Source: Ceratodon purpureus
Taxonomy: Eukaryota > Streptophyta > Bryopsida > Pseudoditrichales > Ditrichaceae
NCBI GenBank assembly: GCA_014871385.1
Contig: CM026425.1
Coordinates: 6,673,243 to 6,737,242 of the forward strand
Direction of reading: 5' to 3'
Length of the DNA stretch: 64,000 nucleotides
The notes under the pieces are model-generated. The model did not search any database. It saw only the letters and a program-made list of their open reading frames with translations, and was not told where the DNA came from. The number at the start of each line of letters is the position of its first letter. Within the stretch, counting starts at the first letter, position 1. Of this stretch, positions 8,725 through 63,631 are shown piece after piece. The translations under genes were made by a program, and so were the position numbers.

Positions 8725-11700
8725 TTATTGAGCAATTGGTAATATGGGATCTGCATTCAAAGTATATTGTATCCTTTCAGCTAATTTGAGTGATTCTCTT
8801 TCATTGTTTTCAATCAATTTATGAATTTCTTCATCTGTAACAATTGCAGTTTTTAATGCACTAGTATCTATTGCTTCTAATTCTTCGCTGTAATCCAAAT
8901 TACAAAACCTACAAGTCGAACAAGTTGTGGCTTGCCTAATATTCCCATTTACAACCCCACTCAATACTCCCAATAACATTTGACGTTTGTCTTCTCGTTT
9001 GTCTTCTCGTAATCTTTTCTTGAATCCATCCGTTTGCGGCTTGGGTGATATGTCACCTCTAGTTCTTTCTGCTTTTGCCCGTATTTCTAGGCTTGTCATC
9101 TCGGCCTCCGATTTGGAAAGGAGCTCTAATATAGAAGTTTCCATACCTTCAATATCAGGATTCAAAGAACTCTCAAGTTTCTCTTCAAGTTCATCTTCGA
9201 GCTCATCTAAAAGTTTTTCTTTAATTTCAAGTTGAGCATCCTTTTGAAGTTCTTTTTGAAGAGCAATTGATTTCTTTGTTTCAAGTGCAGCTTCTTTTAT
9301 AAGTACATTTTTAAGATTAATTGATTCATAATTATCATCATTATGAGATTCAGTATTATGTTCATCATGAAAAATAATAGATCTTCTAAGTTCACTTTTA
9401 GCTTCATTTCTAAGATCATTTTGAAGAACCATTGATTTCCTAAGTTCAATTTGCTTCATAAGCACATCATGAGGATCAAGTGTTGATCTTCTATGACCGT
9501 GATCTATTGTTGACATTCTTCTACCACCTGGATGCTCAATTGTTGATCTTCTATTGTTCTCACTATTATAATCGTTACTTGATCTTGAACTATTGGTTTC
9601 AAAATTGTGATCACTATCCAATCTTCTGCTGTTATCACTAATTGATCTTCTTCTAAGTGATATTTCGTGATCATCATTGTTTGATTTTTCATTGATATTG
9701 CTACCATTATCAATAGTTGAATTACTATTATCGCAACTATAATCAGCAGTTGATCTTCTATTATTGTCACTACTTTGATCTGTTGATGAACTTCTACTAA
9801 TGTTGCCTTGATTGTTCTCCTTGTTTTCAAATTTGTTAAAGGCTCTTTCACTAAAACTTACATGTTTGCAAAAAGGATCTTCATAATTTTCATTTGAAGT
9901 TGAAGGTTCATTTGGATAATATTCAACATGTTTTCTATCATCTATAAAATCTACATTATTTTCATGATTTGGAGTTGGAAGATAATAATCCGAGTGATCA
10001 TCGCTAAGTTCGTTTGAACAATATTCATTGTTTTGTTGAATAGATTGAGGATTATATTGTGTTCTGTCTTTGGAATTGAAAAATCTTAGTTGTTTCTCCT
10101 CAATCACTTCTAGAGGATGTAAAGAAGGACAATGTTCTCTTTGACCGTCATGAATTTCTAAATTACTACGATCACCATTTTGATTATAATTGGAATGATT
10201 TTCGTTTATGTTGTAAGGGGATTCATTATATCCTTGAGACGCATCACATCTTTGATCAAATTCAATTTCATTGTTTTGTGTTGGTGAACGAACACAGTGG
10301 ACAGATTGCATAGAAAATGTGACTTTATGCTCATTATTTGGAAATGGAATATCAAACTGATTTCTATATTTTTCTTTATTCCTTTGATCCAAAAAACAAT
10401 GACCATTAACATTTGAATCTTTTGAAGAATTTACTTTAGCAACATTAACATGAGAGTTTGAAGTTTCATAAGATTGATTTATCCGTAAATTAGGAATCAT
10501 TTTTGATTGAGCACTTGATTCATTGTGATGTGATGTTTCAAAACTTTGTAAATTATTTTCATAATCAATATTTATATCAAAAGATGGGTATTTAGTTAAA
10601 GTGTTTACTTGGTGCATCTTTGTTGGGAAATTATAGTTTTCTTGCTTACAACAACTTTGTGGTTTCTGAAAATTTCTTAGGATTTGAGTTTTATCAATTT
10701 GTGACGACAAATGACAATGTTTTAAAGATCCGTTCAAATTTTCATTAAAACTTTTTTGTTGCATAATTCTTGGATCATGGGATTGTATCTTGTTACATTG
10801 ACTTGATGGATTAATTTGAACATTATTATCAATGGTCTCGAGTTGTTCAAATTCATTTGAATTTAAATTTTGTTTACTATACATGCTTTTATGTAGAGAA
10901 AACACTCCATCTTGATTTTTTCTTTTGTTTAACCAATGATTATTTTCATCAACATGTATTTGATTGATTTTGAAGTAGGGAACTTTTTGGTCATTCATTC
11001 TTTTGAAATTCAAAGAATTTTTAATTTGTTTTGCAACATTTGATTGAAAATCAAAATTATTAGCAAGGTTATCATTATATGTTGATGAGTTAGTATGATC
11101 TATTTTATTACAATGGAAGCTTTCTTGACCTAATTTGTTGTAGATGTTCCTTTGAGAAATATAACAATTGTCACTATGTGTTGAATCATTTATACTAGAT
11201 TCACTTTTATAACCATCAATATCATTATCAAGATTAATACAATTTGTTGATGGAGTTGATGACCTTATTTCAGAATGATTACTTTGTGACATAATATCAA
11301 TTTGTTCATTTTTTAACCACTCTTGTCTTTTTCTAATTTGCAAACCATTGATTGGATCTGATACAAATTTTGTATGATTATCTAATGAATCTATAGTTGA
11401 ATGTAAGGTTGATGGTATCATTGAATCATTTTCTAAATCATTATTTAATATTTCATCGTTAGATTGATTTAATAACATTTCTTTCCTAAACATTGTTGTT
11501 GGTTCAAATTTTCTCTCACATTGAAGATCAACAAAACTCACTTCATCATTTGATGGATCTAAACTTAAAATTTCTTTATCTTCTTCACATAAAACTTCAT
11601 TTTTATATTGGCTTGGATGACACTGCAACACAGAAAATGTATGGGTGGTATGTTTTATATTGCCATCAACATCAATTTGAGTATTATGAGATTCACTTTT

Positions 11701-11769
11701 GTTTCTTTCTTCTTGATTTTCGTCACATTGTGTATATTTAGAAAAAACTTCTAAATTTGAAGGAATCAT
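8725..11769 (-). CDS. Large intronless Asn/Ser-rich protein of unknown function, 1014 aa
   Basis: Not recognised. One uninterrupted frame of 1014 codons in DNA this AT-rich cannot be chance, so it has been under coding constraint until recently. The start used is the ATG at 11769; five further codons upstream begin with TTG. Residues 1 to ~650 are low-complexity, rich in Asn, Ser, His and Gln. Residues ~660-780 are Arg/Ser-rich with a recurring RRST(I/A/L) motif. A charged helical region at ~780-900 is predicted as coiled coil and looks internally duplicated (compare VLMKQIELRKSMVLQ with VLIKEAALETKKSIALQ). The last 65 residues are better ordered and start with CSTCRFC (950-956), a possible metal-binding knuckle. 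No signal peptide or membrane segment is seen. It could be a lineage-specific plant gene, a transposon-borne ORF, or an acquired foreign gene. Confidence 0.65.
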   Translation of the reverse strand: MIPSNLEVFSKYTQCDENQEERNKSESHNTQIDVDGNIKHTTHTFSVLQCHPSQYKNEVLCEEDKEILSLDPSNDEVSFVDLQCERKFEPTTMFRKEMLLNQSNDEILNNDLENDSMIPSTLHSTIDSLDNHTKFVSDPINGLQIRKRQEWLKNEQIDIMSQSNHSEIRSSTPSTNCINLDNDIDGYKSESSINDSTHSDNCYISQRNIYNKLGQESFHCNKIDHTNSSTYNDNLANNFDFQSNVAKQIKNSLNFKRMNDQKVPYFKINQIHVDENNHWLNKRKNQDGVFSLHKSMYSKQNLNSNEFEQLETIDNNVQINPSSQCNKIQSHDPRIMQQKSFNENLNGSLKHCHLSSQIDKTQILRNFQKPQSCCKQENYNFPTKMHQVNTLTKYPSFDINIDYENNLQSFETSHHNESSAQSKMIPNLRINQSYETSNSHVNVAKVNSSKDSNVNGHCFLDQRNKEKYRNQFDIPFPNNEHKVTFSMQSVHCVRSPTQNNEIEFDQRCDASQGYNESPYNINENHSNYNQNGDRSNLEIHDGQREHCPSLHPLEVIEEKQLRFFNSKDRTQYNPQSIQQNNEYCSNELSDDHSDYYLPTPNHENNVDFIDDRKHVEYYPNEPSTSNENYEDPFCKHVSFSERAFNKFENKENNQGNISRSSSTDQSSDNNRRSTADYSCDNSNSTIDNGSNINEKSNNDDHEISLRRRSISDNSRRLDSDHNFETNSSRSSNDYNSENNRRSTIEHPGGRRMSTIDHGHRRSTLDPHDVLMKQIELRKSMVLQNDLRNEAKSELRRSIIFHDEHNTESHNDDNYESINLKNVLIKEAALETKKSIALQKELQKDAQLEIKEKLLDELEDELEEKLESSLNPDIEGMETSILELLSKSEAEMTSLEIRAKAERTRGDISPKPQTDGFKKRLREDKREDKRQMLLGVLSGVVNGNIRQATTCSTCRFCNLDYSEELEAIDTSALKTAIVTDEEIHKLIENNERESLKLAERIQYTLNADPILPIAQ

Positions 11770-14700
11770 TTTTGATGTAATCAATAAAAAAAATACCTAC
11801 ATTTTACTCTAAATATTGCTTTTGGTCAATCGATGTATTTATTATTAAAAAAATATCTTGCATAACCCATTTATTTATATAAGATAAAATTACAAACTCG
11901 TGATGGATAGTCATGAATAATTCTTTTCTTCTTGAATATATTTCATTAATCCAACAAAGTTCCACTATTTATTGTGCAATTTAGTATGTTGCACCTTCTC
12001 TACAATCTACATTACATAAATTAAAAATGAAATTGATTTTAATACATCTAAACAACTTATTTTGTAATATTTCTGAAAAAATAAAATCCAATGATTTTAT
12101 AGCGTTGAAATTGTATTTGCTACTGATGACAACAACAAAAAAAATTTAAATTGTTTAGCTTGTACTTATTCAAATCAACACAATAATATAAATTTGCTAA
12201 AATGGTGTTGATTTATTTTCTCCAAGCCTTCCAAGCCACCTTAAGAAGCCAACTTAATATACTAACAGTAATAACAAATTCAATAGCATTTGTAACATCT
12301 TCTATGAACTTTAGAGGAAACTTCATTGATTCAAATCAAAAAATGTTATAGAAATCTATCATTAAATTATGACTTTGTAATTCATGGACCTCATTTTACC
12401 TCTTTATCTACATGCTTGTAGTGATATTCATGTTCTTGAGAAACCTTAAACATTCAAATTATAATCATAATACTAACTTATCAAAGGAAAATTCTAAATA
12501 TATCATTTTTATAGTCAAAATTTGTTTAAAATTTTGTCAAATTTGTATTAAAATGGAATTTTTAATTTTTAATCTAAAAAAAATAAAAAAATGAACAAAA
12601 TACAAAAATAGTTCATATTGAATATATACATAAATTTTGAAAAGTGGTTTATTTTTTTTCATTTTGTCAGTAGTATATGTTTTAAAATTTGATTTAAAAG
12701 ATGGCACTTCTAAGAAAATTTATAAGAGGCTCAAAAGATGCATCCAAACTCTACCTAAGAATTATATGCATCTAAAGAATACAATCACTTTACAACACTA
12801 TATCCTTATCTGTACAAATTTAAATTATAAATATATATCATTTTTTTCTCAATATTTTTTTCAAAACAAAATAAAATTGTGGTCACAATCCAACTATCAA
12901 AATTTTATACGTGTAATCCAATGTAATTGTCTGTCATAAATTTAGGTTTTTTAATGATCTAATAAATATAGAACATCCTTGTAATGCGTCATTCTTCTTT
13001 CAATTTTTATGAAATTATCAATCACTTGATGGTTAAAGCTTATAGAGATTATAATCATATTTGAATATATATGTTTAATTTTTTAACTCACACAACTGAA
13101 TAATTAATACAATTAATACATTTTTTTACAATTATGGATACATACTTCAAATTTAATATATGCAGTCGTTTTTATGCCTAAAATAAAAAATAAAAAACCT
13201 TTTTGTTTATCGATTTTCTCCACTTATGGTTTTATCTTTATTTTTATTTATTTAATTTATTATTTTAGACAAGTGGTGAAAATTCCATTGCATCTCATCT
13301 TATATTTTGATAGGAATACTATACCTATTAGCGTTAATTTCATAGTTTTCATTCTATATTTTTATTTAAACAAGCTACATGTTGTTTATGTTGAAAATAG
13401 TATATCATATAATTAGATGGTACATAAGTGGGGAGTGCCGTAACAAAGATGTAATAAGAAATACATTCTATAATGTGTCTTGATTAATTAATTCAAATAC
13501 TATAATTGCATGTAAAAATATATATTTCTTGAAAAAAATGAATTATTAAAATATTTATGGCTACAATGATATGATTAGTTCAATATTGAACAATTTTGGC
13601 AAAAATCTTGGACACTTACTTTGAGTCTAATCAGTACATAAAGAATTATGGCAAATTTGCAATATTTATCCATTCTAATCTTGTGAATAATAAGATGAAC
13701 CAAAATTTGAACTCATTCAAATCAAAATATGAAAAGCATTCATTCATTACACTTTAAAGTCAAAAACCAAGAAGATTAACAAAGTTTTCAGATCTATAAA
13801 TGGACAAAGTTTTGTTGAATTTTAAAATCATGGACATACTTGATCCAATAATAGATTTTGTTTTTTGAGTTCAAGATTTTCATAATGAAATTTGACCAAT
13901 TTTAGGTTGGATTTCTACACACACAAAATGAGCCATACTACGTAAACCATATATGCAGCCTCACATCTAACCAAGTAATTCCCCATGTGAATTTCTTTGA
14001 TTTCAAGTAATGATAAGCTATAGTAAACTCCAGGCACATCCTCCTAAAAATCGTCTGTGGCACGTAATCAGAGCTCCAAAGTTCCAAACCACTAGATGGG
14101 CTACCATAAAATTAATGGAAGATCATCACCCTCAAACAGTAAATTCAGGAGCCACTGAAAAACCACATTATTTTATAATCAATTTATTTTGACATTTAAA
14201 CCCTAGTTGAAAAAATACAATGAGAGTATAATTAGTGAGACATTGGCTGCTGATATTCCAGGATTCTCGCCCAACAAATTCGGGGTGGTCCTAAAACCCT
14301 AAAACTAAATACCCCACTGTACAGTGCATGCCATTGAAAAGGCCCCTCATTTTGGCACTAAATAAAAACGATGGGTAACCCAGATGGGCCTTTTCTGTGA
14401 TAATATTCGAGGTGAAATATTATTTAAAATATATTATTTTTCACCCAAGATATGATGCTCTGCCAATCCACAGGGATGGGAGGGCTGAGTCGACAGTGCA
14501 AAATTGGGATAAGCATATTAGTTAGCAGTGGAATTAATATTAATAATCTAATAATGCTTTGGAAATTGCCACTGAGGCAGGCTGAAAGGTGCATTTAAAT
14601 TTGACAAGTTATCCCCTATGAGAATAGCTTGGTTGGGTCTTCCCATTGGCCCATTCAAGCCAGAATACGGCTGCCTTGCTGGACCCCCATTTCTATTTTC

Positions 14701-17296: not shown

Positions 17297-20200
17297 AGCT
17301 ACTAAAAATTTTTGTTTTATAATTTGGGCTAGGGCGGGTCCAATGTCTCGGTAATGGTTGGTGGTTTTCTATTTTTCTTTTGTGAAGAAGGATAGACATG
17401 GCATATTGTATGGTAATTTCATTAATATTTTTAAAGGTGTTTTTGATAGTAGGCATGGAAATTTTGAATCGATCTTCTAGTAGTTTCATTGATGGGATGT
17501 GTGTGGTGGCTCTGGCGCCAGCTGTGATAACTATGAGTGGTCAACTTTCCAACCTTTAGCAATGATGCTGGCAATTAATGGATTGTATTTGTTGGTTTTG
17601 ATTTCTATTGTTTCTAGGGAGAATCGGCCATTGCAATATGTAAATTCGATGAATTGTATGGTGAGATTGGGGTCAATTTTTGTAGGGAGGTCGCTTTGGT
17701 AAGGTAAGCCTTTGACGCAGAGAATATTTGGTCTAAATCGAGAGTTACAATGGCATCTTTGTGTGCCAGACATGCAAGGTAGTAGCCAATTAGGGTCGGT
17801 ATTTTTTGGGGATTTATCATTGAAGGTGCCAGCATTCATAAAGATAAAGCTTCGAGATTTTTCAGATGAGACAAATAGTTTTCTAATTTCCCAGACTGCT
17901 TTGTTATGTCTTTTGACTCAGAGTGACTGAATATGTTGTTGTTGGCATGTGAGTAGAACGTGTAACCATGTGTCCGGTTCAGGAGAGTTACAAATTGGGC
18001 ATGAGATAGACGGGAATCTGTCCGTGCCATAGAACATCTGTTTTCTAGCTTGGCCCATGTAAGTTCCGGTACGGAATTTGATGAGGCATGATTTTTGTTT
18101 GTCTGTAATAATTGGGTTATTCCAAAATTCATTGGAGAGTTCATTGTCTATATCTTCATTTTTTGTCCATTTGCAAATGTTAGGGGTCTGCATGGCCATT
18201 ATTTCTAAATTGTTTTCTCTATCATATTTCTTGATTTGTTTTTCTAGGGTTCGAACGGGGCCTTTGTCTGGGACAGAAATCATGGATGGCCAATCGTCTT
18301 TTTGGAAGTAGTAGGGAGTTGCATGGGGAAATTCGTGTGCGTATTCAGCCTTTCTATGAGCTTTGCGTGTCCCTAGTTTTGCTAGTTTGTCTGCTTCTTC
18401 GTTGCCATCAATATCTACGTGTGCTCTGACTTTATATATTGTAGTTGGTTGTGTTCTTTGTTGTAGTAGTTCTACGATGGAGGCAAGTGTGACTTGATCT
18501 GGATGATTGTTGTGTAATGTGGGGTGTTTTATTTGTGTGTTAAGTAAGTATAATACATTTAGACAATCGGTAAATATATATGTTGGTTCATTAGGGAATT
18601 GTGTATTGAGAATTCTTAGTGTTTTGTGAATTGCCATCATTTCAGCGCGTAGCATATTTTGGTGACCGTGTAATCTTTTGGGGATATTGAGGCCTTTGGG
18701 GCTGTAAATACCAAATCCAGCTTTTTCTCTCATCCATTCGCCAGGGCCAATTTCTCTTGGGGGTATAAAGGAGCCATAGGTGTAGTAGCTAAATTGTGGG
18801 TGGAATTTTAATGGTAAATTTGTTTGATAATTTGGAATTTGTGGAATGGATATATGGTCACTGGTGGGGGTGTTTGAATAATATAGTTTAGACCATTTTT
18901 TATTGGGTTTAACAGGGGTATTTAGGGAGGTAGGAGGGGCAATTTTTGTGTAAATTTGTGGGATTCTGAGGTTGTTTGCTATATGGTTGAGTTGGTTCAA
19001 TTATTCGTGGGAGCCAATGCTATTATTTTGGTGATGGGTGCAAAGTATTTGGAGCATAGAGAGTTCTTTTCTTTCAAGTGTTGAGTTCAGGGGGTACTGT
19101 GGGCTCTTCGTAAGTAATGGTGTCCGCTGCGAAGTGAACGACGATGTGTGGGTTAAAGTTTTTATACCAGTTGTTATTGGGGGAGATGATTATGGTTATT
19201 GTATTAGAGTCGTGTTTGGCCGCTAGTCGGGCCCAGTGAATTGTTTGTTGTAAATTTGTAGCATTGTGGGGATGGGCGTATCCAATTCCGTTCCATTTAT
19301 GGTCAAAGGCTGTCCCAAGGGAGCCAAATATTTTGTCTCTTGAAAATGGGGAATAGAATTGAGTGAATTGTGTAGGGCATGAAACTGGAGATGAGAAATA
19401 AGACTTGGTTATGTTAAATGTTGTTATTAGAAAGTCTAGTATTGGAGTTGGTATCGTGTATTGTGCGCATTTAAGTGGGTCGTTTTTGGGGATACGGTAT
19501 TTATACCGTAGATATAACCAAACAATTTCAGTTTCAAATGATTGTGTTGGTGGTTCAAGGCCATGTGGAGTGTTTCTGGCATGTTGGTATTGCTTCCAAA
19601 GCCATCTTAGTCTATTTTGTGGGATTGTGATGAGGTGTCTACTATTATCTTTGTATATATGTGCAACATCAAATTGTATTTGGATAGTATTGTTGTTTGT
19701 TTCAATGTCGTTTTCTGGATTGCATTCATTAATAGAAATATGTGCAAGTGGTATTGTTGTGGCAGGAATGACGTATCTAGTGTCTTTTGGTTGTTCGGTA
19801 GAGAAGTAAGCTTGTATTAAATTAGATAAATATTTGTGTTGATTATTAGTGTAATATTGGATGAGTATTTCTGTGTTATGGTTGCAAATGGTATCATCGC
19901 TCTAGGGAAATAAGTCTCTTTGTGGAAGCCATTTGTTGTAAGTATTGTTATCTTGTGTGATATATTCGCATAAGTATGTTGTGTCCATTCGGTTCGTTGA
20001 ATTGTCTATGTTTGTGATCAAGTATTGTATGGATAGGGAATTGTCTAAGATTTATAAGTATATTGATGGGGGGAGATGGTTGGAGTCGGATAGGTAGGTT
20101 TGGAGGGTGTATGGGAGGAATTGATTGTGGAGGTGATATGTTATGGTTTATTATTATGTAATCGTCTTTGAGGGTTTGCAGGGGGCGATGATATCGGCAA

Positions 20201-42748: not shown

Positions 42749-43234
42749 TCATGGAATAATGCGACCACTGCTGTACCCACACATACCGAACAGACAAGGC
42801 ACACCGTCAGCACAAACATTCCCACAAGCTCCGCAGTTGAAGGGATCTGAAGCGTGAGCGTCCACGCAAACACCGCCGCAGCATTCCTTGTTATATGCGC
42901 ACTGGACGTTGCACGCACCGCAGCTCTGGGAGCTCCGGGAGACGTCCACACACTTCCTGTTGCAGCAGACTCGGTCACTGCTCTCGCCGCACCCTCTGTG
43001 GTGATCACAATCCGAGTATAACTCATCCGCAATAGACCTGCCCCCCGGAGCAGCTTGCAGGCTGAAATCCGACATCATCGACGCACGGCTGAACCTTCGG
43101 ACGCCAACTCTCAACTTCGAATCCTGCTCTTCCGACGATCGCGAGTGCACTGTCGAAGCTGCACACATCGTCACGAACATCACAGCCATGATGCAGGTTC
43201 TTCCTCCATGTCCTCTCACACTCCAACTCGCCAT
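42749..43234 (-). CDS. Secreted Cys-rich STIG1-like protein, 161 aa
   Basis: Single-exon gene starting at the ATG at 43234. The N-terminus has a hydrophobic stretch (CIMAVMFVTMCAASTV, ~14-29) consistent with a signal peptide, then a variable linker. The C-terminal half carries the STIG1 cysteine pattern: CCNRKCVDVSRSSQSCGAC, then CCGGVCVDAHASDPFNCGAC and a final CLFGMCGY. STIG1 proteins (Pfam PF04885 family) are small apoplastic proteins; in flowering plants one modulates exudate and pollen-tube growth, but outside flowers the role is unknown. Length fits the family. The gene is GC-richer than its surroundings and lies between two inverted copies of a ~1-kb repeat. Confidence 0.88.
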   Translation of the reverse strand: MASWSVRGHGGRTCIMAVMFVTMCAASTVHSRSSEEQDSKLRVGVRRFSRASMMSDFSLQAAPGGRSIADELYSDCDHHRGCGESSDRVCCNRKCVDVSRSSQSCGACNVQCAYNKECCGGVCVDAHASDPFNCGACGNVCADGVPCLFGMCGYSSGRIIP

Positions 43235-57284: not shown

Positions 57285-60200
57285 TTATTGATTTTTACGC
57301 TGAGTCGCTTCAAATGCCTCTGGGTCGTCGCATACTTGTGTTAGCCACGTCGCAAACATGAAACATCCAGCACGGCAATATCTCACGAGGAAGGATTTCA
57401 GACCATACTGAATATAATCAAAGCAGCCATAACGTGCCATCATGCCTTGTTCTTCTATTCTTCGGTTGTCTTCCATCTCGTCATTGATCACCACCTCTTC
57501 GTCACTCTCAGATATCTCTCCGCGCCCAGTTCCTTCGCCAGTTTCTACCACTAGAACGTCTCCATCACTCCATCCCAATGCAAATTCGTTACGCCTTCGA
57601 GGATTCGCAGCAATCGTAGTAGGATAAGTTGTCCTGCATGAGGAAAGACTCAATTATCAAAACTCAATGTGTACGTGTTTCGAGTGACGGCCAAGAGTAC
57701 AGCATCTAAAGATTAAACACCTCGGTATAAATGCCTTTACGTAATTCGTGGTGATGATGATGAATGACTTGCATGTTAGTGGAAAAGATTTCTTTAGAGA
57801 ATGTATTATGGTGCAGATTACATACCCGCTCACTCCTTGAGATCTGTGTAAAGGCGGGGCAAGTCGGCACCGCAGCCAGAAGCTCTCGGCATCAAAAATA
57901 CCGACAGAGCCATCAGCAAAGCCGGCATAAACAAGTTGGCTGTCACATGAGTAAGTGGCATCTGAAATTGCAGCTGTGAAGGGACTTTGAAGGTCCCACT
58001 GCATACAACCGACCAGAATTGTTCAAGGATGTCAGGTTCAATCAAACAAGCCCGCAACTGATGATTAAGATTTCATAATTACCGTAAAAGCAATCTATGT
58101 CGATATATTATGACCTGCTTTTGAAACATGTGGGTCAGCTGTTTGGTTAGCAGCCAGCTTGACCTATTAAAATTATATTATCCTGCAATGGGCTTAGCAG
58201 TAGTACTACAAGGGAATTGGTGGGAAGAAAGTAGAAGAGAATTATATACCTGACAGAGATGATCCAGCTCTCTTGCATCTTCCTGTTCACGAATTTTGTA
58301 AACAACCAACTGAGATTTGCTGACAGCCAGAAGGCGAACTTGGTCGTGGTGAAATTGAACACGGATGCCCTCTCGGCATGGTACCCTCCCATCAGGTTGA
58401 TATTGCACAAAGTTTAACTGTCGTCTTACCCACTGATCTGTTCTCCAAGCGCACAACTGCAGATGAGAGAAACAACGTTATTTTGTCTTAGAAACGACAT
58501 TATTTGGTGATCTTAGTTGCAATCTGCGATTAGTACATAACTGTGAATTTACGCTTAAACATGGAAATTGATAGAATTAGGCTTCAATTCAAGTACGCAG
58601 GTATGCACCTGATCATCTGCCCCCAGCGATACAAGCACTCTTAAGAACTTGGAGAATGCCAAACCAGTGATTCTGTTTTGATGGCCCTTCAACGTGCACA
58701 CCACCTGCAAGAGAGGGTATGTTTGTTTTTGGATTTTAGAGAAATGCTAAAGTGGTGACACAACATGGCATGTTGTAGCCTATCATTTTCATATTCGTCC
58801 ATGTTTTTCATATGCACAAACAAACCTGTTTCTCCCAATCATTTATAATTGCAATTGTTGAATCCTCCAGTCCTATTACAAGGACATCATCGTCGTGAGG
58901 ATAGTATGCAAGAAATGTGGCTCTTGAAGGTAAATATTGAAGTATTGTTTCTTGATTGACCTAGGAAACACAACATTCTTCATTAGTAGACTTTTGACAA
59001 AAGATGTTGTAAAAGTTAACATTGATTCCAACCTTCTTGTAGAACCATATATCATGTAAAATTGTGAGATTTACCTTATCGGTCATCATTGTGTAGAAAG
59101 AAACTTGTCCTCCTGAGGCAGATAATAGATGATCGTTATCATTGCAAAGCGCCATAGAACATGGTTGACCTTCTTCATGTGTTGTGAGATTGATGTCATT
59201 GATCATCAGCACACTGCCAATTGGTTGCCAGAATTGTGGAACAACAACTACTCTGGCCTGCCAAAATAATTGAATTAAAAATAAATGCATAGTTAAGTAA
59301 ATATATTTTCATCAGCTCATTGAAGTTGTCATTCCAAAAGGTTGATGTGATCATATTGTAAACAAAGTTTCCTTTATCAAACACCTAACAAATCTAAAAT
59401 AACATACAATAAAAAAAAGCCAAATCTACATCACACTTCATATTTATAATTACCTGATTTTTCCAATCCCAACGCTTGTGCATGCCGCTGGATGTGAGTG
59501 CCAACAAATTCATCTCACCTCTTGTCTGAAGCCGTGATCCATTGTTGGAGTAAATAAGTTTTGTAATCTGCGGCCAACAAAATATAATTACTCAATAATC
59601 AATCTCAAAAATACTCCTATTGGTTCTTATTTAATTGGTTTTCAAATGTAACTTGCACTACACATGTATGTATAAAAAAATCCAGCTATGAATGTGATCA
59701 ACTAAAAAAACATGGGATAGTAAATCAAACCTTCTCACGTGGCATAGGGTCCCATAATCTTCTTGACCGAAATTGATGTTGTACATCAATGTCTATGTCT
59801 AGACGAGACTGAGTGAGGTTAGTGGGCTCGCCATGATAATTGTCACCATACTTAGATTGATCGGAGCTATGAAACACCACAAGTTTCTCACATGATGCTT
59901 TAAGTTTCATCTCCTCCTCTTCACTTATGATTATTCCACTCTTTTGAAGGCGAAGCACCTCAAGATCTATAGAGCAGCTTAGTTGCTCGGGTAGCTCACT
60001 CAACTTCTTACATCCTTCCAAATCGAGAACCCTCAATGAAGGTATGGGTGCACGACTAGATAAGGTCAACAAGTGTGCACAACCTTGAAGGATAAGTTTT
60101 TGTAAGTTTGGGAAGTGACTCAAATCTGGTAGTCCTTCAAGACTTAGACAAAGGGTAAGGTCTATGATTGTCAATTTAGACAAGTATTTTGAGCAAGTCA

Positions 60201-63200
60201 CCATCTTTAAGGCAGTCAACCAACTAAATGTTCCCTCTTGTAATTGGGGAAATTCATCAAGATCCAGGGAATCAATTCTTGACAAATCTGTACACCTCAA
60301 AACTTCCAATTGAGTTACTTTCTGCATAGAAGGCAAATGACCAAGTCCGTAACAACCATTGGCTTGAAGCACCTTCAATGTGGTTGAATCACTAAGCCCT
60401 GGCACTTCTTTCAGCAATATGCATTCAGAAATGTTCAAATGGCTCAACTTTGTCAACCTTTGTAAGGACGGCAAACTTTTGAGCTTGTTACACCCCCACA
60501 TGTCAAGCTCCTCCAAATCATGTAATTCATCCAAACCAGGGCACTCTTGCAGTTTTGAACATCTGCTTATACACAAGGACTTTAAGTTGAACAAGTTTGA
60601 GCTCAAACCTGTTATAGTCACCACATTGTCACAATGTGCAAAGCAAACCACTTGCAACGCTTTTAGCTTGCCAATATTTGGGAGTGTATCACCATCAAAG
60701 CCCTTTATCTCCAAAACTTGGAGCTTTGTTAGACTCCCAATTTCTTCAATGCATGATGAAGTGGCTTTGTCAGCCCACCATTTGAGAATAACAAGGTTCT
60801 TCAATGATCCAAATCCGTCACAAGTGATTAGGAATTTGTTGGCCTTCAATTCCAAGCTCTTGAGATGTTTTAATCCTTTGAAATCCAAAGTTATCTTTGA
60901 TGGTTCTACAAACCATTGGATGTTCACCTTCAACACTGATACATTCACACACTCATCAAAATTCACTTCTTTCAAACCTTTCCATCCTTCATTTAAGAAG
61001 CGCATTCTCTTCATGTCTTTCCAGGAACAATTAAGTTCACCACTTTCTTCCTCCAAGAACATCCAACGTTGATATCCATACTTCTTGGCTTTTGCTTCGG
61101 CAACACAAAACTCACGCCAAAGATCGTGCATACCAATTTTGGTCCACCCATCACCTAGGTCTTCTAAAAGTGACTTCTGCTTCAGCTGAAGAAAAAAAAT
61201 CCATAAAGGAATAAACCTTTTGTACGTCGAGCCACATGAACTTAGCACAAATAAACCTTCATATAATCATACTTCAAGTACTTAGGAGTACATAGTGATG
61301 TAGTGATATACAAATCAAGAAAATTATATAATTATGCATCCTTAAAAAGAAAAACAAAGTCTACAACAATGCAAATCTTTACCTGGTTCAACATTTCTTT
61401 GACTTTTGATCCATGCACCATGCTTAACCAGTCATATAAGTTGCACTTCAAAAAACATCCCCAATGCCAACTTTGATATTGTACACATGGTAAAAATAGA
61501 GCAACATCCATAAACAACATTTTGGCTTCATCGTCTAAGCTTTCATAGCTTGTCCTCAAGATAGAGAAGATGGGATGCTTCTTTTGTGATAACGCCTTTT
61601 CAAATGTATCAATCTTCTTCAAACGCACATCCCATTTCCTTGGATCATATCCAACACTTGCAAGCTCCTCACCCAACACTTCTAATGCCAAAGGAATGTA
61701 GTGACAAACTTGGTTTGCTCCTTTAGAAAAACAACATCTCTCAACACAACGATTGAGAAGTTGTTCATCTATTTTAATTGTAGCATCTGCAGACTTCACA
61801 TGATTTTGAAATAACGCCATTGCATCATCTTTTGTCAATTCTGGTACTCCCATACAATCACTCTCATTGATGTGTGGCTTCAAATACGTTAAGTCATTTA
61901 AAGAACGTGCAGTCACCATGACCACACTTCCTTCAATCCATCTTGTTCCAAGATAAGTCTTTGCCTGCTTGAGGTTTTCTCGATCATCTGATACAACATT
62001 ATCAATAGCAAGAAATATAGGCTGATTTACAACGCCTTTATTTAGTTGGTTGTGACACTGCAATTTCAACAATAATTGTATATGTCAATAAAATATTTAA
62101 TCATCAAAGTGCTTTGAATATATATTTTTTTAAAACTTCATAATTAAAGTAATTTCTTCAAACAAAAAATTCTTTCAAAGCAAATATTATACAATATATA
62201 TGTGATTATAAATGAAAAAATAGGAAAAAGACATGATTTTAGTAATTCATACCTCATCAATGTTGTATCGATCCACAATATCATGTTTTAATTTTGTAAG
62301 CCTCTTCAAAAGTTCCCGTAGTAATTGAACAGCTTCTGTTGAACTTTTTAGTTCAATATGACATACTTTTCCATGGAATTCCTTAGACATCTCATTGCAC
62401 ATAGCCTTGCAAATGGTGGTTTTCCCAATACCACCTATTCCATGCAAACCAATTACACGAACTCCATTTTGTTGCATTTGTTGATTGATTTTTTCACGTA
62501 CAACCTAAAAATACATCATTTGAAAATAATCAGTAATTAATGTTTAATATGATATTACCACTGAAATTGTTTATAATCAACATCTATTAGTTTTCATACA
62601 ATTACCATTATAATTTTATGTCTTCCAAGCATGACATCTTAGAAAAACTATAATTTATCATTTTTTCTTCTACTCAAACTTGTGATGAATAAGGATATCT
62701 CATTAAATTTCTACAAGTTATTGTTTTAATTACCTTACACAATCGCGACTTTCCTTGTACATGAGAATCATTTAGTTTTGTCTCTGGATCAACCAAGGCA
62801 CAAACCGCATCCACAATTTTTTCTCGAAGGTCAACTTCTCCACTCGTATTGATGATACTATTGATTGTCTTCAATATCTCCAATGCTTCCTTCCATTCAT
62901 CGATATTTATTCTTGTATCATTACTTGCCCATTCATTCCATCTCAAAATCCACGCCGTACGGTTTTCAATATCCAACCAATCTTCTCGTGAAATACAACA
63001 AAATACAGGAATGATTTTTATGGTCAAATTGGGCTTCAAATTGGGCTTCTTCAGTTCCTTCACCATTGCCACTAATTCCACCATTGGCCATCTAGCATTT
63101 GTAAAGAACTCCTTTGACAATACCAACACACCAACTTGACATTGTTGTATAGCATTGAAAATAAGTTGTGGATATGCCTCCCCAATTGGTAAACTGCTTT

Positions 63201-63631
63201 TCCGCTTTGCATAGAAGGGGTATCGATCACATCTTTCCAAATCCACACATAGCTGCTCCACAAAATCTTTTTGAGCACCGCTGTAGCTTAAAAACACCTT
63301 GTGTTTAGCTTGGAGCTGGATATCACTGTGCCATCACAAACATGCAAAATCATTAAGGAAAAAATTACACTTAAAAACAATTTCATAATTTATTTCTCAG
63401 GAGTACAAAAAAATCAAGGGGATAGTTATTTTGAAATCATGCAACATTCCACTGCTTATATCACTATAGCCAATCATATTAAATAACTCGCCTGTCTGTG
63501 TGCACCAGATTCCTCTGATGCAATCCATCCTCATGTATCTCGCCATGACCTGTTTCACTGGATCCCTCACCCTTGTTTGTCTCGCAGGTTGAGAGACCCA
63601 GTGCACAATCATCTTCTGAACTTGGCTCCAT
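57285..63631 (-). CDS. TIR-NB-ARC-LRR immune receptor with C-terminal TOPLESS-type WD40 domain, 1456 aa
   Basis: Predicted intracellular immune receptor. Exons (minus strand): 63631-63492, 63325-62734, 62504-62253, 62057-61383, 61185-59731, 59567-59454, 59257-59075, 58960-58826, 58704-58609, 58456-58250, 57998-57826, 57633-57285; every junction is in phase. Intron 1 has a GC donor (CAG|GCGAGT). TIR (~57-190): VFLSYSGAQKDF, with Glu130 in RWPMVEL at the NADase catalytic position. NB-ARC: P-loop GIGGIGKTT (266-274), kinase 2 IFLAIDNV, RNBS-B GSVVMVTAR, GLPL-like YIPLALEVLG, MHD at 572-574. LRRs fill ~600-1000 (LEELDMWGCNKLKSLP and similar). From residue 1039 the match is to the second WD40 propeller of TOPLESS/TPR: IYSNNG, HKRWDWKNQ, PQFWQP, LLSASGGQVSFY, LKGHQNRITGLAFS, VQFHHDQVRLLAV, ATYSCDSQLVYAGFADGSVG. 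An acidic tail follows. The TOPLESS N-terminal LisH/CTLH half is absent. Alternative: two adjacent genes, with the LRR exon read into WD40 exons. The WD40 part has no own start codon context, which favours fusion. Confidence 0.85.
59454..59731 (-). other. Exon junction joining LRR to WD40 coding sequence
   Basis: The LRR exon ends MPREK followed by donor GTTTGATT (intron starts 59730). The next exon begins after CCGCAG at 59567 with ITKLIYSNNG. Both are phase 0, and the intron is about 163 bp, similar to the others in this gene. No stop codon closes the LRR frame before the donor; reading through would add one Val and stop inside the intron. 'RRLWDPMPREKITKLIY' itself resembles the linker that precedes the second propeller in TOPLESS, so the TOPLESS-derived part may begin in the last codons of the LRR exon. 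Confidence 0.75.

Follow-up and report, generated by a model that had tools for sequence, protein, structure and literature searches.

The gene described here raises the question of why a receptor with TIR, NB-ARC and LRR domains should continue into a WD40 propeller, from which protein that propeller was derived, and what it might do in its present place. The gene lies in a stretch of 64,000 nucleotides of the genome of the moss Ceratodon purpureus (C5:6673243-6737242), which is referred to as the window throughout. A first-pass annotation had joined twelve exons in phase into one frame with TIR, NB-ARC, LRR and WD40 sequence, and our analysis bears this out: the exons, which are located on the minus strand from 63631 to 57285, splice in phase into a protein of 1456 amino acids with no internal stops, and the same design recurs at seven other loci of the genome.

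Gene model of the receptor

Ten of the eleven introns have GT-AG borders. Intron 1 is read with a GC donor (AG/GCGAGT, 63491), and exon 1 (63492-63631), which provides the start codon and an N-terminal leader of 46 amino acids plus 2 nt up to this donor, is the least certain exon of the model. A GT donor at 63487 together with an exon start at 63315 also keeps the frame; however, we prefer the GC-donor form because the first exons of the paralogues A1 and D1, which were chosen by eye, likewise end in phase 2. Exon 2 (62734-63325) encodes the TIR domain, exon 3 (62253-62504) the start of the NB-ARC domain with the P-loop GIGGIGKTT (residue 266), and exon 4 (61383-62057) the remaining NB-ARC domain (FLAIDN at 343, VVMVTAR at 373 and IPLALEVLG at 449). 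The long exon 5 (59731-61185) contains the MHD motif (residue 572) and the LRRs, and its 3' end encodes about 20 residues of a linker derived from TOPLESS (TPL), so that the fusion point is situated inside this exon.

The propeller begins at residue 1039, exactly where it had first been placed. Its seven blades, the limits of which were drawn by eye, are distributed over the last seven exons: blade 1 is encoded by exon 6 (59454-59567), blade 2 by exon 7 (59075-59257), blade 3 by exon 8 (58826-58960), the first part of blade 4 by exon 9 (58609-58704), the remainder of blade 4 and most of blade 5 by exon 10 (58250-58456), and the end of blade 5 and blade 6 by exon 11 (57826-57998), which is 75% identical to TPL. 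Exon 12 (57285-57633) encodes blade 7, after which come an acidic stretch and a tail rich in cysteine and aromatic residues that is lacking from the two TPL genes of this genome. An additional exon at 58163-58115 was considered and rejected, as it breaks the frame and introduces 11 stops, and its omission restores the TPL wording HLCQ/WDLQSP. The tail itself (57285-57460, ARYGCFDYIQYGLKSFLVRYCRAGCFMF) has a counterpart in D1 and in the adjoining D1b propeller, in which a similar GCLDY/GCLDH tail is found; the other array models are without it. Retention of intron 5 (59725-59731) would lead to a stop one codon past the junction (PREKV-stop) and hence to a TNL without the propeller, and it is possible that such a short form of the receptor is produced by regulated splicing.

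In Pfam searches the receptor half matched NB-ARC (E 3.2e-17), TIR_2 (8.4e-11), TIR (1.5e-9) and LRR_4 (3.4e-13), with the TIR, NB-ARC and LRR regions following each other in TNL order within one protein. The P-loop and the MHD motif are both kept. Glutamate 130 of the TIR domain (WPMVEL) aligns with a glutamate of the bacterial TIR chains 7uwg_A (E 0.0024) and 3h16_A (E 0.0043); we take these chains to be NADase TIRs, and our view of which glutamate is catalytic is likewise an assumption. A single-sequence AlphaFold2 structure of the TIR domain had a mean pLDDT of 44.7 and was left unused. Within 5 kb upstream of the gene, where frames were judged by eye, no partner NLR was seen; frames on the opposite strand (L059, 2757-4570) resemble a 2-oxoglutarate-dependent oxygenase.

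Elsewhere in the window, adjacent minus-strand frames at 17918-19901, in which RNase H (E 8e-11) and PCIF1_WW (E 1.5e-11) domains were recognised, possibly belong to a mobile element. A STIG1-like cysteine-rich protein (PF04885, E 1.5e-17) is encoded at 42749-43234. A single open frame of 1023 amino acids at 8725-11796 is Asn- and Ser-rich, has only a sub-threshold Pfam match and is located in an island rich in A+T, with a GC content of 0.23-0.28 over 6-14 kb.

Origin of the propeller and position of the junction

Domain searches gave the propeller no family name. Pfam returned generic WD40 models only (best E 6.2e-14, under the cut-off of that model; PF00400, 1.1e-9), a PDB search found generic propellers only, and NCBIfam had no match for it. 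A generic WD40 identity was nevertheless overturned by the genome's own TOPLESS genes. Full-length TOPLESS genes are present at two loci, one on C11 (TPL11) and one on C8 (TPL8), and their minus-strand frames contain regions that we take to be, in the customary nomenclature, LisH, CTLH, a proline-rich region and two WD40 regions. These genes contain the wordings PSLWQP, SASGGKVSL, LKGHQKRITGLAFS and SCDSALVYTGFVDGSVG, which match those on which the first-pass annotation had based its assignment of the propeller to the TOPLESS C-terminus. The assignment stands in this respect, but has to be narrowed, as the integrated part, with seven blades by eye, corresponds only to the second of the two TPL propellers (WD40-2). 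A profile search with residues 1039-1456 had been proposed as one of the checks; while Pfam remained generic, a search of the genome itself with these residues (E up to 0.001) led to TOPLESS, with all 48 of the matches listed falling in the window gene, the two TPL genes or an array of related loci on C11. In the reverse direction, the TPL8 propeller finds the fusion loci, and 72 of its 73 matches are in the window gene, TPL or the array, the sole outlier being a WD40 sequence at C5:11082087 with 29% identity. A lone fragment resembling exon 6 is located at C2:23135287.

The exon structure leads to the same source. Exons 6 to 12 of the window gene correspond one-to-one to the seven final coding exons of TPL. 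Since the phase agreement seen at first had partly been imposed by the modelling, the junctions were tested again with the phase left free, and 70 of the 72 junctions between these exons in ten paralogous propellers and the two TPL genes take the phase of the window gene; the two discordant ones (exons 10/11 in C1 and exons 6/7 in TPL11) differ by 4 and 5 score points. The end of exon 8 is probably four codons short in both TPL models (GT after RVDE), which does not affect the phase. The retention of these introns indicates that the source was TPL genomic DNA and not a processed copy.

The LisH/CTLH half of TOPLESS had been described as missing from the receptor, and this is indeed the case: all eight matches to the TPL N-terminus are in the two TPL genes and none was found elsewhere in the genome. 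Similarly, in a search covering the window and seven regions, all 17 matches to the first TPL propeller fell in the two TPL loci, and none in the window or in five C11 fusion regions.

The boundary of the fusion had to be corrected. It had been put at the splice between 59731 and 59567, but the junction lies upstream of that splice, inside exon 5. The TPL8 exon preceding the first propeller exon ends in EINEQNQCRSTRLPDTLPPNK, and the LRR exons of the fusion genes end in similar words, namely VINAQNGCRSRRLPDTLPREK in A4 and DIDVQHQFRSRRLWDPMPREK in the window gene (59731-59793). Compared with the TPL8 linker, the tail of the window gene obtains a score of 44, a value attained by 4 of 2000 shuffles, while for the tails of A1, A4, C2, D1 and E1 the score against this linker was reached by none of 2000 shuffles each. 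The sequences thus place the recombination within exons, joining an LRR exon to the TPL linker exon. Because exon 5 ends in the TPL linker, LRR and TPL sequence are encoded by a single exon, and on this ground we reject two separate genes, a TNL beside a WD40 gene; together with the recurrence of the fusion in the paralogues it also makes an independent start of the WD40 exons very unlikely.

The same observations bear on the broader concern that there is no single functional gene here, but a TNL next to a TPL fragment, an artefact of gene model or assembly, or a pseudogene. Such decay does occur among the relatives, as the LRR exon of C1 is interrupted by one stop and partial copies exist (B2, which lacks the TIR domain and most of the NB domain in the stretch examined, as well as A2p and the pieces near 10.289, 10.614 and 14.582 Mb of C11). 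However, with LRR and linker in one exon, an arrangement repeated at seven loci and a window frame open over 1456 codons, we consider this explanation highly improbable.

The fusion family and the evolution of its propeller

The seven further loci (A1, A4, C1, C2, C3, D1 and E1) have TIR, NB, LRR and propeller exons in equal order and on the same strand, and all seven are on C11. Including the window gene, the family has at least eight loci, and since the fused design recurs in other genes of the genome, we regard it as a real receptor family. Propellers or parts of propellers without a TIR domain, some of the pieces with stops, are found in A2p, D1b and the three C11 pieces mentioned above. 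Another locus on C11 (10666560; 10.666 Mb) has a TIR part and an NB part interrupted by stops, with no propeller match nearby. No nearby propeller match was found either for the TNL loci listed on contigs besides C5 and C11, the genome-wide list comprising 79 scored candidates out of 673. At D1 (C11:12632495-12642663), exon 12 runs in frame via the tail into a second TPL-type linker, which runs up to a possible donor (GTCTGA) like that of TPL8 and is followed by the D1b propeller. From its sequence, D1 probably encodes a TNL whose TOPLESS propeller is doubled in tandem.

Trees were built separately for the propeller, with TPL as outgroup, and for the TIR-NB part, with one TNL from C12 that has no propeller match as outgroup. 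Both have the window gene branching first, then D1 and then the others, with support of 85-89 only at the deep forks. Their agreement is explained by one fusion and subsequent duplication. As TPL11 and seven of the eight fusions are on C11, with D1 about 130 kb from TPL11, it is plausible that the fusion arose on this chromosome.

The integrated propeller has changed much faster than its source. Between the two TPL genes, dN/dS of the propeller is 0.022 (bootstrap 0.007-0.046), whereas in six close fusion pairs, which are non-independent and whose values are blurred by gene conversion, it is 0.54-0.65 and thus about 25 to 30 times higher. The corresponding values in these pairs are 0.50-0.72 for the LRR and 0.20-0.28 for the TIR-NB part, and some upper bounds for propeller and LRR reach 1.03-1.04. 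Deep pairs, in which the window gene is compared with the array and synonymous sites are near saturation, gave 0.15-0.24 for TIR-NB, 0.28-0.38 for the LRR and 0.37-0.48 for the propeller. The propeller therefore evolves in the manner of the LRR, with which the receptor recognises its targets, and unlike the engine of the receptor or TPL itself. Relaxed constraint on a TPL copy would likewise raise its dN/dS. The value is below 1 in all six pairs and so gives no sign of positive selection, and the ten modelled paralogous propellers are free of stops, of which about 7.6 would be expected under neutrality for the pair E1-C2, although the models were built to avoid stops and could hide a frameshift. 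The pattern is one of rapid change with the frame kept. Gene conversion is apparent from identical encoded sequence in A1 and A4 (exons 9-12) and in A4 and A2p (exons 6-8, 100% protein identity). Variation in the array is greatest directly behind ASG of blade 2 and SCxG of blade 6, at sites that are probably loops.

These rates also speak to a structural role, in which the propeller would be a generic scaffold or an autoinhibitory cap, a function that WD40 repeats may have in other STAND proteins, and derivation from TPL would be incidental. NB-WD40 proteins are indeed known from other organisms, accounting for 58 of 61 NB genes in the red alga Chondrus crispus and about 35% (11/31) of the bacterial ones (PMC7145615), and all seven blades have been kept in the moss receptor, as far as can be judged by eye. 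On the other hand, the LRR is still there, and a cap that touches only its own receptor should not vary like an LRR. We therefore consider a purely structural role improbable.

Possible roles of the propeller

In maize, WD40-2 of TPL is bound by Jsi1, an effector of Ustilago maydis, which uses a DLNxxP motif for this purpose; interactions with TPL/TPRs are also reported for effectors of M. oryzae, S. scitamineum and S. reilianum (PMC8126959). A different part of the protein is used by Fusarium SIX8, which binds WD40-1 of TPR1 (PMC10754003), the propeller that is absent from the moss fusion. The first-pass annotation had offered two roles for the TOPLESS-derived domain, a decoy or a built-in link to transcriptional repression, and had regarded recognition of a bait or partner through the propeller as the likelier one. 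The rate contrasts and the binding of Jsi1 to TPL WD40-2 support this preference. A link to transcription through the propeller is the main rival to the bait. In this case the propeller would tether the active receptor to DLNxxP-type repressors or other nuclear TPL partners and alter their target genes, and it is in its favour that the host factor ZmERF4 is also bound by TPL WD40-2 (PMC8126959). The interaction of SNC1 with TPR1 had been cited as a precedent; in that case, it is the TIR domain of SNC1 to which TPR1 and TPR2 bind (PMC7935258), a finding that connects a TNL with TOPLESS proteins but makes the analogy a loose one. Against such a link, LisH/CTLH and the first propeller are absent from the fusion, and a surface to which conserved host partners dock would be expected to be under constraint, which is at odds with the raised dN/dS of the integrated copy. 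It thus seems unlikely to us, though less so than a structural role.

We favour, with reasonable though not strong confidence, a TNL sensor receptor that carries the TPL WD40-2 propeller with the end of its linker as an effector bait, fused in frame at the end of the LRR exon. The receptor would watch the WD40-2 docking surface of TPL, and effectors that bind this surface, for which DLNxxP-type EAR motifs are the documented route, would also bind the integrated copy. Binding to the propeller may then release the NB-ARC domain and allow the receptors to assemble, and the assembled TIR domains, with their glutamate kept, would produce an NADase signal. As the integrated copy lacks LisH/CTLH, it should not act as a corepressor, and effector capture would cost the plant little. 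To our knowledge, no moss effector that binds TPL has been described. A more far-reaching proposal, to which we give somewhat less than even weight, is that the TOPLESS propellers form an array of baits that has been diversifying in the moss lineage. In this view, TPL WD40-2 would have been captured by one TNL, copies would have spread on the chromosome carrying a TPL gene, and the propellers would have been reshuffled by gene conversion and, at D1, doubled in tandem. Together they would monitor the DLNxxP docking surface, a point of convergence for effectors of several fungi.

The architecture resembles that of known NLRs with integrated domains (NLR-IDs). Rice Pik-1 carries an HMA domain and Arabidopsis RRS1 a WRKY domain, and in these receptors, too, a complete NLR is combined with an extra domain copied from a pathogen-targeted host protein, the domain changes fast and the family is clustered. 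In contrast to Pik-1 and RRS1, the receptors described here form a moss TNL family, the domain is the WD40-2 propeller of TOPLESS, and recognition is a prediction. The extra domain is in the same frame as the receptor and derives from a stand-alone host protein, TPL, and it is homologous to the part of TPL that an effector binds in maize (PMC8126959); integrated domains serve NLRs as bait (PMC11218826). With the TOPLESS/TPR corepressors the fusion has in common the second propeller, its exon joins and the linker end, but it differs in the absence of LisH/CTLH and of the first propeller, in its rate of change and in being fused to a receptor. The NB-WD40 STAND proteins of a red alga and of bacteria, some of which have a TIR domain, likewise combine NB, partly TIR, and WD40; however, the WD40 is there paired with the NB domain and the LRR goes unmentioned in the sections drawn on (PMC7145615), whereas the moss WD40 is placed after an LRR and has its source in a known nuclear protein.

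Neither integrated domains nor WD40 domains among them are new. The gene AT1G15750 is, we assume, TPL itself. It is listed in a table of effector targets as the WD40-containing target of HARXL21, in the same article that reports WD40 among the NLR-IDs of six angiosperms (PMC4759884). These angiosperm receptors have a WD40 domain in an NLR as the moss receptors do, but the origin of the domain is not given in the sections drawn on here, and the word TOPLESS is absent from the main text. An expansion of NLR-IDs has already been reported in Ceratodon and Sphagnum (PMC11218826), and the terms WD40 and TOPLESS do not occur in PMC12787737 and PMC9528084. We found no TOPLESS-derived integrated domain of an NLR in the literature searched, although an entry in a supplementary table may exist.

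TOPLESS is a hub hit by unrelated effectors, and the piece of it that was taken into the receptor, WD40-2, is also the one to which Jsi1 docks with its DLNxxP motif (PMC8126959). The fusion makes it possible to ask directly whether plants guard the TOPLESS hub by mimicry and, if this is true, these receptors would represent a clear integrated-decoy family outside the flowering plants.
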